Source: Paenibacillus aurantius (GTDB taxonomy: Bacteria > Bacillota > Bacilli > Paenibacillales > NBRC-103111). From it: 64,000 nt of DNA. Below the pieces are notes generated by a model that made no database searches, was not told the DNA's origin, and saw only the letters and a program-made list of their open reading frames with translations. This document shows positions 5,601 through 11,643 of the stretch, piece after piece. Each line of letters opens with the position of its first letter. Position 1 is the stretch's first letter. The stretch spans positions 5,059,501 through 5,123,500 of the forward strand of contig NZ_CP130318.1 of assembly GCF_032268605.1 (NCBI RefSeq), read 5' to 3'. Made by a program: the position numbers and the translations under genes.

Positions 5601-5750
5601 AGGCCTTCGTCTTCTGCTTTGCCGGCGTTTCATGTAAACTGAGGATAAGAACCGCCCGAAAAAGGCATCAACATGCCGCCCGCCTCCCCTTCTTACCTGG
5701 AGATGGCCCGGGCATTGCAGAAGGCGAAAAATGATGGAGGTTTGTGTACC

Positions 5751-7691
5751 ATGCTGCTGCAGGCTGTCAACATTACCAAAAGCTACGGGGTCCGCCCCGT
5801 GCTGTCCCATATATCCATTCAAGTCAACGAACGGGAAAAAATCGGGTTAGTCGGCGTAAACGGTGCCGGAAAATCTACGTTTCTACAAATTATTGCCGGG
5901 GAAATGTCGTACGATAGCGGCGAGATTTACAAAGCGAAAGAAACGCGTGTCGGTTATTTGGCCCAGAACAGCGGACTGGATTCCGACAAGACGATTTATG
6001 AGGAAATGCGCGAGGTCTTCTCCCATCTGCTGACGGCGGAGAAGGAGCTGCGCGGCCTGGAGCAGGCGATGTCGGATCCTGACCTGCTCGCCGACGAAAA
6101 GAAGTACAACGAAACGATGAACCGCTATGCGGCCCGCTCGGAGTGGTTCCGGGAACAGGGCGGCTATGAGATCGAATCCAAAATCCGCAGCATCCTGCAC
6201 GGGATGGGCTTCGGAAGCTTCCCCGCGGACACGGTGGTCTCAACGCTGAGCGGAGGCCAGAAAACGCGGCTGGCCTTGGCCAAAATGCTCCTCCAGGAGC
6301 CGGATCTGCTCATGCTCGACGAGCCGACCAACCATCTCGACATCCAGACGCTGACGTGGCTGGAGGATTACCTGCGAGGCTATCCCGGCGCCATCCTGGT
6401 CGTCTCCCACGACCGTTACTTTCTGGATGCGCTTGTCGGCACCATCTACGAGATCGAGCGCCATACGTCCAAGCGGTACACCGGCAACTACTCGCGTTAT
6501 GTCGAAACGAAAGCCGCCGAGTACGAGATTCAAATGAAGCAGTACGAGAAGCAGCAGGACGAGATCGCGAAGATGGAGGATTTTATCCAGAAGAACATCG
6601 TCCGTGCCTCCACCACGAAAAGAGCCCAGAGCCGGCGCAAGGCGCTGGACCGGATGGACCGCATCGACAAGCCTCTCGGCGAGCTGAAACGGGCCTCCTT
6701 CTCGTTCGAAATCGAGCAGACGACGGGCAAGGACGTCCTGAACGCCGAGAACCTGTCCGTTTCCTTCGACGGCACTACCCCGCTTTTCCGTCATGTGTCG
6801 TTTCAGCTGTCCCGCGGCGACACGGCGGCACTCATCGGCCCGAACGGAATCGGGAAGTCCACCCTGCTGAAGACGCTCATCGGGGACCGCCGCCCGGACG
6901 CCGGGACCTTCAAGTGGGGAGCCAACGTCAAGCTCGGCTACTACGACCAGGAGCAGACCGGGTTGAATCCGGAGCATACCGTGCTGGATGAGGTGTGGAG
7001 CGCTTTCCCTCATCTGGAAGAAGCGCGCATCCGGTCGGTGCTCGGGAGCTTCCTGTTCAGCGGAGAGGACGTCTTCAAGAAAATTGCCGGCCTAAGCGGA
7101 GGAGAGAAGGCCCGGGTGTCCCTGGCCAAGCTGATGCTTCAGAACGCCAACGTGCTCATTCTGGATGAGCCGACCAACCATTTGGACCTGTACAGCAAGG
7201 AAGTGCTGGAGGCCTCGCTCATGGACTACGAGGGCACCCTGCTCTTCATCTCCCATGACCGGTACTTCCTGAACAAAATGGCGGACCGCATCCTTGAGCT
7301 GAAGCCGGACGGAGTGGAAGCCTATCTGGGCAACTACGACGATTACCTGGAGAAGAAGGCCGAACTCGCCGCGATCGAAGCCGACCGGCTGGCCGCAGCC
7401 GCAGCCGCCGCCGTCGACAAGAAAGGCTCCGCCCCTCCTGTCGAGAAGCCGACCGACTACGAGGCCGACAAAAAGGCGAAGCGGGAAGAACGCAGCCGCC
7501 AGCGGAGGCTGGAGCAGCTCGAGCAGGACATTGCCCGGCTGGAAGGCGAAATCGCCGCTCTCGAGGAAGAGCTGGCTTTACCGGAAGTGTACCAGGATTA
7601 TATGCTCGTACAAGAGAGGAACCAGGCCATCGACGCCAAGAAGGCGGAGCTTCAGACCGGGTATGAAGAATGGGAACAGCTTTTGGCCTAA
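5751..7691 (+). CDS. ABC-F family ATPase (YdiF/Uup type)
   Basis: This 646-residue soluble protein has two ABC domains and no membrane segments. The first has GVNGAGKST, LSGGQKTRLALAK and LLMLDEPTNHLD; the second has GPNGIGKST, LSGGEKARVSLAK and VLILDEPTNHLD. A linker around residues 240-320 is rich in E, K and Q (YEKQQDEIAKMEDFIQKN), as in ABC-F proteins that act at the ribosomal E site. The C-terminal 100 residues form a charged coiled coil, as in Uup and YdiF. The ATG at 5751 follows GGAGG. It occupies the ydiF position relative to tsaD and moaC. A ribosome-related housekeeping role is more likely than drug resistance. Confidence 0.92.
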   Translation: MLLQAVNITKSYGVRPVLSHISIQVNEREKIGLVGVNGAGKSTFLQIIAGEMSYDSGEIYKAKETRVGYLAQNSGLDSDKTIYEEMREVFSHLLTAEKELRGLEQAMSDPDLLADEKKYNETMNRYAARSEWFREQGGYEIESKIRSILHGMGFGSFPADTVVSTLSGGQKTRLALAKMLLQEPDLLMLDEPTNHLDIQTLTWLEDYLRGYPGAILVVSHDRYFLDALVGTIYEIERHTSKRYTGNYSRYVETKAAEYEIQMKQYEKQQDEIAKMEDFIQKNIVRASTTKRAQSRRKALDRMDRIDKPLGELKRASFSFEIEQTTGKDVLNAENLSVSFDGTTPLFRHVSFQLSRGDTAALIGPNGIGKSTLLKTLIGDRRPDAGTFKWGANVKLGYYDQEQTGLNPEHTVLDEVWSAFPHLEEARIRSVLGSFLFSGEDVFKKIAGLSGGEKARVSLAKLMLQNANVLILDEPTNHLDLYSKEVLEASLMDYEGTLLFISHDRYFLNKMADRILELKPDGVEAYLGNYDDYLEKKAELAAIEADRLAAAAAAAVDKKGSAPPVEKPTDYEADKKAKREERSRQRRLEQLEQDIARLEGEIAALEEELALPEVYQDYMLVQERNQAIDAKKAELQTGYEEWEQLLA

Positions 7692-7727
7692 ATAAGCAAT
7701 GCCGTTAATCTTTCCCCGCTTAAAATT

Positions 7728-7764
7728 ACCGTTATACACACAGGAACCCCTTGCATATAACGGT
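7728..7764. repeat. Perfect inverted repeat ACCGTTATA-N19-TATAACGGT
   Basis: The 9-bp arms lie at 7728-7736 and 7756-7764, between the ABC-F stop and its terminator. The left arm overlaps a DnaA-box-like 9-mer (7732-7740). There is no T-run after it, so it is not itself a terminator. It may be a protein-binding dyad or an RNA hairpin in the ABC-F 3' UTR. Confidence 0.6.
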
Positions 7765-8090
7765 TACGGGATAAAGTACCAAAGGGAGCTCCGATTGGGG
7801 GCTCCCTTCCTTGTTTATACCATAATATTGGTTGCGCAAACGTTTACCTGGATAATCCCTTCCAGGAAGCAAACCATCGCCTTATCCACAGGGTTATCCC
7901 CATAATCACAGGGTCTTTAGGCCTGTTTGGACAAGGTTTTCCCGCTTCTCCACAGAGTTATCCCCATTATTAACATTTTTCTTGGGAAAACTTATCCCGA
8001 ACTAGCGGCAACGTTTAGGACCTACTCCCAAAAGGGTTTTCCCCATTTTGTCCACATTATACACAGGGGGTGTGGATAACTATATCCACA
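7732..8090. other. DnaA-box cluster between ydiF-like gene and leuA
   Basis: Nine 9-mers match TTATCCACA with at most one mismatch: 7732-7740, 7882-7890 (perfect), 7894-7902, 7946-7954, 7958-7966, 8048-8056, 8057-8065, 8071-8079 (perfect, opposite strand) and 8082-8090. Boxes 7882/7894 and 7946/7958 form two copies of a 12-bp-spaced pair repeated 64 bp apart. The stretch is AT-richer than its surroundings and has no gene. There is no dnaA, dnaN or rpmH nearby, so it is not the ordinary oriC. B. subtilis carries DnaA-box clusters outside oriC that restrain initiation, one of them, as I recall, next to gcp (tsaD); this gap is the positional equivalent. Confidence 0.85.
7782..7815 (+). terminator. 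Rho-independent terminator after the ABC-F gene
   Basis: AAGGGAGC (7782-7789) pairs with GCTCCCTT (7801-7808), helped by adjacent C-G pairs, followed by the T-rich CCTTGTTTA. It lies 90 bp after the stop codon. Confidence 0.7.
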
Positions 8091-8093
8091 CCC
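8068..8093. repeat. Perfect 11-bp palindrome formed by two facing DnaA boxes
   Basis: GGGTGTGGATA (8068-8078) and TATCCACACCC (8083-8093) flank a 4-base loop. The arms contain a perfect DnaA box (8071-8079, minus strand) facing a one-mismatch box (8082-8090, plus strand). On the plus strand TTTT follows, so it could also terminate transcripts arriving from the left. Both roles are possible. Confidence 0.7.
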
Positions 8094-8144
8094 TTTTGAA
8101 ACAGATTTTGAAGAAAAAGTTGAGAATTTTTATCCGGCGACAAG

Positions 8145-9725
8145 TTATGGCCAGAAATGAACCGGTGCCGCAAAAGATTCCCCCGCTTTCTCCGCCTTGG
8201 CGTGAGGAACGAGGCCTTGGTTCCGGGCCGCCTGGTTGCAGGCTGCCAGGTAAGCATGGGCCACGGCGAGCAGAATGTCCTGGTGCACCGCCGTTCCCCG
8301 GTAAGCCTGCCCCCCGGCCGCTATCGTGACCTCCGCTTCTCCTCCGGCGGATTCTCCCGCCGAAAGGGAGTGAAGCTCCATGTCGACGAATTCGACCGGG
8401 AACGGTACCGCCTGCTTGATGCAGCCGATGATGGCCTCGATCGGGCCTTTGCCGATGGCCGAGGAGCTCACCTGCTGCCCGGTCCCGTTGTACCGGACCA
8501 CGGCGGAGGCCATCCGGCTCCGTTCGCTTCCGGAGACGACCTGAACCTCGGTGAGGGTGAAGCTCTCCAGGGCTTCCTTCGTCACCGCTCCGGCCAGCCG
8601 CATCAGCTCTTCGTCGGTGACAACCTTCTGGGCGTCGGCTTTCTCCTTGAACCGGCGGTAAATCTCTTCCATCTGTTCGTCGTTCACCTGCGCGCCGAGC
8701 TCTCCGATCCGGTGCCGGATGGCATGACGGCCGGAATGCTTGCCCAGGATGATCATTTGACGGGGAATGCCGAGCCGCTCCGGATCCATGATTTCGTAAG
8801 TGCTCCGGTTCTTCAGCAGGCCGTCCTGGTGAATGCCCGCCTCGTGCTGAAAGGCGTTGCGTCCGACAATCGGCTTGTTGAACGCAATCGGGAAATGCAT
8901 CGCCTGGCTGACCATCCGCGACGTGCGGTAAATCTCCTCTGCCGCGATGCCGGTTTCCGCCTGAAGCGCCGCCCCCTTCGTTTCGATCGCCATCACCAGC
9001 TCCTCGAGGGAGCAGTTGCCGGCCCGCTCCCCGATTCCGTTCACGGTCACCTCCACCTGCGTCGCTCCGTTACGGATCGCCGCGAGACTGTTCGCGACCG
9101 CGAGCCCCAGGTCATTGTGGCAGTGGGCGCTGTACTCGACGGTCTCTCCGCCCCTTACCTTCTCCCGCACGGTGCGGAACACTTGGCCGTATTCCTCCGG
9201 CAGCGCATAGCCGACGGTGTCCGGGATGTTGATGATGGTGGCCCCTTCGGCGATGACAGCTTCGACCATCTCCAGCAGAAATTCCTCTCCCGTCCGCGTG
9301 GCGTCCATCGGAGAGAATTCGATTTGTTCCACAAACTGCTTGGCATAGGCGACCATCTCCCGCGCCGTCCGGATCACCTGCTCCCGGGATTTGCGCAGCT
9401 GAAAGTCCAGGTGGATGTCCGACGAGGAAAGAAACATATGCAGGCGCCGGCTCGCGGCGTCCTCGGTGGCCCGGACAGCGGCGTCGATGTCTCCCTTTAC
9501 GGCACGGGCGAAGCCGCATATTTCAACGGCGGGAAGCAGCCGGGAAATTTGCCGGACGGCTTCGAATTCCCCAAGGCTTGAGACCGGGAACCCGGGCTCG
9601 ATGACGTCCACGCCAAGCCGGGCGAGCTGAAGCGCGATCCTCACTTTCTCTTCGGGGGCCAGGGAGGCGCCCGGAGCTTGCTCCCCGTCTCGTAATGTCG
9701 TGTCAAAAATGCGGATGCGGTTCAT
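8145..9725 (-). CDS. leuA: 2-isopropylmalate synthase
   Basis: This 526-residue enzyme condenses acetyl-CoA with 2-ketoisovalerate, the first committed step of leucine synthesis. The N-terminal TIM barrel shows [32 protein letters not shown] (metal-binding HxH) and [19 protein letters not shown]. The C-terminal regulatory domain follows the [13 protein letters not shown] segment. The upstream AAGGAAGAG suits the second of two close ATGs (9725) better than the first (9731). The gene stands alone, without leuBCD, and is governed by two leucine T-boxes and its own promoter. Its position between tsaD and the DnaA-box cluster differs from B. subtilis. A citramalate-synthase activity cannot be fully excluded by eye. 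Confidence 0.93.
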
Positions 9726-9771
9726 GCTCATCTCTTCCTTTCGAATGGGGATTTTTGGTTAGCTTGGTATA

Positions 9772-10593: not shown

Positions 10594-11643
10594 CTACTGC
10601 ACCGACCAGTCCTCCAGGGAGAGGGACGGCTCGGCTTTCAGGTAAGGGGGCGCGAATTGGCCGCGCTCCCACTTCAGGAAAGCCGCGGCGCCGATCATGG
10701 CGGCGTTGTCGGTGCAGAGGCTGAGCGGCGGGACCAGGAGCGGGATCCCGGCCTCCGCGCAGCGCTCCTCCAGCCGGGTGCGAAGGCCGCGGTTCGCCGC
10801 GACGCCTCCGGCCAGCAGCAGCTGCCGGGAGCCGGTCTCCCGGACGGCGCGGATCGCTTTCTCCGTGAGGACGTCGAGGACGGACTCCTGAAAGCCCCGC
10901 GCCACCTGGTCCGCCGGCAGCTCCACGCCCTTCATGCGCGCCGTGTTGAGAGCCGCCAGTACCGCCGATTTCAGCCCGCTGAAGCTGAAATCGTACGATT
11001 CCGGCTCCAGCCAGGCGCGCGGCAGCGGCAGCGCGCTGTCCGCCTCTGCGGCGAGCCGGTCGACATGCGGCCCGCCGGGATACGGCAGGCCGAGCGCCCG
11101 TGCGACCTTGTCGTAGGCCTCGCCGGCGGCATCGTCGCGTGTGCGGCCTATGATGCGGAAGCGGCCCGGCGCTTCGACGTGCACGAGCTCGGTGTGGCCG
11201 CCGGAGACGACCAGCGCGAGAAGCGGATACTCCAGCTCGTGAACGAGCGCGTTCGCGTAGATGTGGCCCGCGATGTGATGCACGCCGATCAGCGGCAGCC
11301 CGAGCGTCGAGGCGAGCGACTTGGCGGCCACGAGCCCGATCAGCAGGGCTCCGACCAGACCGGGGCCCTGCGTCACGGCGATCGCCGACAGGTCGCCGAG
11401 CCCGAGCCCGGCCTCGCGGACCGCCTGCTCGATAATGAGCGTGATCGACTCCACGTGCTTGCGCGAAGCGACCTCGGGCACGACGCCTCCGAACGCTTTA
11501 TGGGTTTCGATTTGGCTGGAGACCACATTGGAGCGGATGACCTTGCCGTCCTCTATGACGGCTACCGAGGTTTCATCGCAGCTTGTCTCCAGCGCCAGTA
11601 TATAACAGGGCCGGCCGGACCGGTCCCGGGTGTTCATCCTCAT
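10594..11643 (-). CDS. tsaD: tRNA N6-adenosine threonylcarbamoyltransferase TsaD
   Basis: This 349-residue member of the Kae1/Gcp family transfers the threonylcarbamoyl group to A37 of ANN-decoding tRNAs, in complex with TsaB and TsaE. Visible motifs are ILALETSCDETSVAVI near the start, the metal-binding HHIAGH (about residue 121), VSGGHTELVHV, the SFSGLKSAVL segment and LAGGVAANRGLRTRL. It follows rimI, tsaB and tsaE on the same strand, the same order as ydiE in B. subtilis. The start could be either of two close ATGs (11643 or 11637). Confidence 0.96.
   Translation of the reverse strand: MRMNTRDRSGRPCYILALETSCDETSVAVIEDGKVIRSNVVSSQIETHKAFGGVVPEVASRKHVESITLIIEQAVREAGLGLGDLSAIAVTQGPGLVGALLIGLVAAKSLASTLGLPLIGVHHIAGHIYANALVHELEYPLLALVVSGGHTELVHVEAPGRFRIIGRTRDDAAGEAYDKVARALGLPYPGGPHVDRLAAEADSALPLPRAWLEPESYDFSFSGLKSAVLAALNTARMKGVELPADQVARGFQESVLDVLTEKAIRAVRETGSRQLLLAGGVAANRGLRTRLEERCAEAGIPLLVPPLSLCTDNAAMIGAAAFLKWERGQFAPPYLKAEPSLSLEDWSVQ

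Follow-up and report, generated by a model that had tools for sequence, protein, structure and literature searches.

An intergenic array of ten DnaA boxes, likely binding sites for the replication initiator DnaA, in the chromosome of Paenibacillus aurantius is very probably an old and well-kept brake on replication. The array is found at the same place in most of the Bacilli families sampled, and we give a probability of about 0.7 to its being a DnaA-binding cluster outside oriC that acts as a titration site. It lies within a window of 64 kb, the whole stretch of DNA analysed (positions 5059501-5123500 of a genome of 6,303,770 bp), and by its position is a true orthologue of the gcp/ydiF cluster of Bacillus subtilis.

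DnaA boxes were defined as sites with at most one mismatch to TTATNCACA. The box scan located ten of them at 7732-8090 (about 360 bp), four perfect (starting at 7732, 7882, 8057 and 8071) and six with one mismatch; the earlier note on this DNA had recognized the cluster correctly and had counted nine boxes with two perfect ones, figures that the recount replaces. Nine boxes lie on the + strand, with starts at 7732, 7882, 7894, 7946, 7958, 7967, 8048, 8057 and 8082, and the sole box on the - strand starts at 8071. The array begins with an outlying perfect box TTATACACA (7732-7740, + strand), followed on the same strand by a tandem pair TTATCCACA-GGG-TTATCCCCA with 12-bp spacing (7882-7902) and a triple TTCTCCACA-GAG-TTATCCCCA-TTATTAACA (7946-7975) with a 12-bp and then an abutting 9-bp spacing, both of them conserved in other clusters. 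The pairs 7882/7894 and 7946/7958, singled out earlier as a twice-repeated pair, do share the 12-bp start-to-start spacing and form part of a 26-bp repeat (88% identity). The array ends in a terminal module recognized by cluster comparison (8048-8090, + strand), in which TTGTCCACA and TTATACACA abut and are followed after 5 bp by an inverted TTATCCACA and after a further 2 bp by ATATCCACA. The last two boxes give rise to an inverted repeat at 8068-8093, not assigned to either strand, whose 11-bp arms (8068-8078 and 8083-8093) are 100% complementary, the perfect palindrome of a facing pair that had been described. The fold of the array region (z = -3.9) has been ascribed largely to this palindrome and is not taken as evidence of a structured RNA; the Rfam search of 7600-8300 gave no match.

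The array is non-coding and occupies the gap between the stop codons of two convergent genes, so that it lies between two 3′ ends: on the left a ydiF-like gene for an ABC-F ATPase (5673-7691, + strand; gene calls and profile search) and on the right leuA, encoding 2-isopropylmalate synthase (8145-9731, - strand; NCBIfam NF002086 and TIGR00973 above cut-off). A terminator-like hairpin identified by consensus match (7782-7808, + strand) probably ends ydiF. Beyond leuA lies tsaD (gcp) (10594-11643, - strand; TIGR03723 above cut-off) followed by its usual partner genes. The G+C content of the array is 43% and that of its surroundings 59%.

Such a density of boxes is far above the background of the genome. 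The rest of the window holds at most two boxes per 400 bp, and the 32 boxes of the whole window were reached in none of 100 dinucleotide shuffles (mean 16.4, largest 26). Perfect boxes number 88 genome-wide, for which a Poisson model predicts about 4e-7 groups of at least four within 348 bp per whole genome; a comparable number of close perfect boxes was met only at oriC, which lies at the contig ends, these being counts from pattern searches, which clusters of imperfect boxes alone could escape. The array is the densest group of the genome outside oriC. Smaller groups were seen at 33.7 kb, 119.2 kb and 5.666 Mb: the first comprises four boxes directly upstream of tadA (own genome 33699-33778; L003:1700-1779), and the last four boxes within 100 bp (own genome 5665836-5665935; L004:2337-2436).

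A YdiF match was obtained in 148 of 151 genomes of the order and in 146 of 161 of the class, and about 8-11 kb around ydiF (less at contig ends) was read in 80 genomes, with one to three per family outside Paenibacillales. Taking six or more boxes per 400 bp as a cluster, 38 of 40 loci from Paenibacillales show one downstream of ydiF and 26 of 40 loci from other Bacilli show one near ydiF; three more of the latter hold three to five boxes, mostly perfect. In three loci lacking the cluster near ydiF, the genes ydiF and tsaD are no longer neighbours and the boxes are found 3′ of tsaD (12 boxes in L135, six each in L138 and L139), and a genome without a YdiF match (L133) carries five boxes in that position. 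Altogether about 32 of the 40 loci from other Bacilli families have the cluster beside ydiF or tsaD. A handful of Bacilli was also sampled as named genomes by a profile search with a YdiF alignment, which, given the generic ATPase motifs, returned mostly paralogues and no B. subtilis; clusters were found in Staphylococcus intermedius (nine boxes), Paucisalibacillus globulus (ten) and Paenibacillus daejeonensis (eight), while Shouchella miscanthi and Marinococcus luteus, in which only a very short distance separates ydiF from tsaD, had none. Several other Bacilli families among the loci read are also without the cluster, which has therefore been dispensable in evolution. Soehngenia longivitae, which we take to lie outside Bacilli, has a convergent ydiF-tsaD pair with no boxes. 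In Schaedlerella arabinosiphila (Clostridia) six boxes, four of them perfect, occupy about 400 bp some 3.5 kb beyond an ABC-F gene (L170:10515-10907) and are possibly an unrelated DnaA cluster.

The clusters share a direction and a spacing. Among 65 clusters, 465 boxes run along the ydiF strand and 151 opposite to it, and neighbouring boxes on the same strand are set 9 bp (abutting, 91 cases) or 12 bp (67 cases) apart, far more often than at any other spacing. Counted by families, which is fairer than counting related genomes, the abutting pair occurs in 25 and the 12-bp pair in 22 of the 30 families with a cluster. The terminal module, defined with loose spacing and mismatch limits as two abutting boxes, about 5 bp, an inverted box, about 2 bp and a box, was found in 28 of the 65 clusters, 19 of them from P. 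aurantius's own family, and was absent from 770 kb of flanking DNA and from 22 oriC sequences. The P. aurantius array shows 12-bp pairs, abutting pairs and the terminal module alike. A search for the abutting pair TTATNCACATTATNCACA, allowing up to one mismatch, gave 63 matches spread over 27 genomes; counted from the listed positions, 28 matches (20 genomes) are no more than about 5 kb away from ydiF. An earlier description of the one-way grammar of 9 and 12 bp, or of conservation this wide, was not found, and the grammar appears to be new here; priority for both is uncertain, the two most relevant papers lying outside the comparison.

The best two matches to TTATNCACATTATNCACA in the P. aurantius genome are the 7732-8090 cluster and the site at 119.2 kb. 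The latter is a second conserved triad of DnaA boxes with the same 12-bp and 9-bp spacing, placed between fliT-like flagellar genes and cspA (own genome 119213-119242, L249:5214-5243; L250:3985-4035; L251:3582-3611; L252:4023-4052; L253:3693-3722; L254:3753-3782). It lies about 110-140 kb from dnaA in all six genomes of the family examined and at the start of an Rfam cspA thermoregulator match (found in L249 and L251), and it may put cspA under DnaA control.

The cluster of B. subtilis to which the array corresponds belongs to a set of six outside oriC (PMC4447404; Okumura et al. 2012 as cited in PMC5295017) and ranks with the strongest regions of DnaA binding in that genome (PMC4447404). It comprises 10 sites bound with a Kd of 0.15 μM for ATP-DnaA and 0.33 μM for ADP-DnaA, with a 16-fold preference for the ATP form at 55 nM, and binding is in general cooperative (PMC4447404). 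Deletion of all six clusters leads to early initiation, an effect that is strong only when all are gone and is partly relieved by one re-inserted cluster (PMC5295017; PMC13220808). Both clusters have about ten boxes, occupy, as the earlier note had proposed, the same junction at the 3′ end of ydiF on the tsaD side, and lie in the origin-proximal third of the chromosome; in P. aurantius leuA is inserted between cluster and tsaD, the G+C content is 59% and few other clusters exist. The cluster has been kept between Bacillus and Paenibacillaceae in spite of the insertion, as had been supposed. This comparison was made on position and published description, and the binding values are those of B. 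subtilis.

The array lies 1.24 Mb along a replichore of 3.15 Mb, a fraction of about 0.39, and the B. subtilis site is at about 0.30, as estimated from its published summit (PMC4447404). A further 43 complete genomes, some with rounded sizes, have ydiF-dnaA distances of 0.13-0.56 of a replichore (median 0.34). In all 44 genomes the fork meets ydiF head-on, and the prevailing direction of the boxes follows that of the gene; as a clue this direction is confounded with the co-directional tsaD operon, which alone may account for it.

We propose that several molecules of DnaA, preferably ATP-DnaA, would assemble cooperatively on an array that is polar and whose boxes abut or stand 3 bp apart. On its way from oriC, a fork would copy the array about 0.39 of the way along the replichore and so double the sites, which would lower free DnaA and delay the next initiation. 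That P. aurantius DnaA binds the array is probable; its preference for the ATP form and its effect on initiation timing are predicted by analogy with B. subtilis. Titration is supported by the box density and its rarity in the genome, by the junction kept across Bacilli, where the cluster stays while its neighbours change and its polarity and spacing are conserved, and by the ATP-preferring binding of the B. subtilis counterpart, the phenotype of the six-cluster deletion and the origin-proximal position. It is weakened by the lack of the cluster in some Bacilli families, by the verdict of a review that the B. subtilis clusters are not significant for initiation (PMC5295017), by the origin-proximal position being common to the whole tsaD-ydiF neighbourhood, and by the consideration that a site serving only as a sink has no obvious need of a fixed polarity and spacing.

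There is a more ambitious reading, in which the mostly one-way array and its terminal module would specify a defined ATP-DnaA filament that actively changes the nucleotide state or activity of DnaA, as a datA/DARS-like element of Bacilli; we hold it as a tentative proposal, improbable at present. The version in which a filament built on the head-to-tail array goes beyond storage, stimulating ATP hydrolysis as at datA or ADP release as at DARS, is slightly less probable still. Many families have the polarity, 9/12-bp grammar and terminal module in common, oriC lacks them, and the B. subtilis counterpart strongly prefers ATP-DnaA, all of which would suit such an element; the conserved spacing may nevertheless serve cooperative binding alone. 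Bacilli are without known datA, DARS or Hda, and the question whether B. subtilis has regulators that balance DnaA-ATP and DnaA-ADP is posed as open in PMC13220808. However, datA and DARS depend on IHF or Fis, and IHF, like datA and DARS themselves, is missing from B. subtilis (PMC13220808), and the literature examined reports no nucleotide-switching activity for the clusters. The cluster resembles E. coli datA as a non-coding group of DnaA boxes outside oriC that would lower initiation, and differs from it in having no known IHF-dependent hydrolysis and no relation in sequence or gene context. With DARS1 and DARS2 it shares non-coding DnaA boxes in a fixed arrangement, but DARS reactivates DnaA and nothing comparable is seen here.

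A DnaA-controlled regulatory site for a neighbour, be it leuA, ydiF, tsaD or, elsewhere, a membrane protein of about 750 amino acids, is a considerably less likely explanation. DnaA does act as a transcription factor at some sites (PMC4447404), and in many genomes the 5′ end of the left neighbour faces the cluster. In P. aurantius and B. subtilis, on the other hand, the cluster lies between 3′ ends, and a simple sigma-70 scan of the array region detected no promoter-like site. The neighbours change on both sides: the array is parted from tsaD by leuA here and in many Paenibacillales and abutted by tsaD in many other genomes, leuA was not detected beside the cluster in loci outside Paenibacillales, and on the other side the neighbour is ydiF, the membrane protein or, in some genomes, a PAS-type kinase or a PPK2-like protein (the last two judged by eye from their sequences; the tally of orientations is approximate in G+C-rich genomes, where the simple ORF caller errs). 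A conserved role in regulating one neighbour is disfavoured because the array stays while these genes change, and its boxes are not attached to the promoter of a conserved neighbour as in sda-type regulation; an effect on leuA transcription, suggested earlier, is accordingly unlikely as the conserved function.

Two observations on the neighbouring genes are recorded here. The membrane protein (about 700-900 amino acids), encoded between ydiF and the cluster with its 5′ end facing the latter, is conserved in many Bacilli families (L089, L098, L102, L105, L074, L076, L073, L059, L054, L049, L053, L079), and the two copies scanned gave no Pfam family above cut-off and one weak sulfatase-like match; where this gene is present, local regulation by the cluster is possible. 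Two nearly complete single-contig genomes of P. aurantius's family stand out for tsaD, one (G050) giving no match in the search and the other (G031) a match limited to residues 6-195 inside an open frame of 3543 amino acids; loss of tsaD, a sequencing fault or a limit of the search are all possible.

It is very unlikely that the array is a secondary or relic replication origin. It equals oriC in box number, shares its box consensus in the same genomes and is A+T-richer than its surroundings, but the unwinding element of an origin, DnaA-trios next to a box, is absent: 17 of the 20 sequences covering dnaA-dnaN reached a trio score of at least 10 of 12, and all 65 clusters stayed below it. The spacing is also unlike that of oriC, where 374 boxes in 22 control sequences formed a single abutting same-strand pair and the common spacings were 11 and 12 bp on the same strand and 9 and 12 bp for facing boxes.

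That an A+T-rich motif piled up by chance, or that the boxes are a family of unrelated repeats, has a negligible probability. Convergent gaps are A+T-rich, but nothing of weight speaks for this reading, and it is refuted by conservation over dozens of families and by the reversed motif, which gave 0.86 matches per cluster against 9.5 for the real one; shuffled loci reached maxima of 2-6 boxes, and in 818 kb of loci outside the clusters no 400-bp segment held six.

Most work on DnaA clusters outside oriC has been done in B. subtilis, in which they are seemingly redundant. One of them is seen here as an old element whose position, direction and spacing have been kept in most sampled Bacilli families amid gene turnover. 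The regions known in B. subtilis were considered too few to define what makes a site prefer ATP-DnaA (PMC4447404); dozens of orthologous arrays now supply such regions, with the one-way 9/12-bp grammar as a testable candidate. Control of the nucleotide state of DnaA by a DNA element likewise becomes testable in Bacilli.
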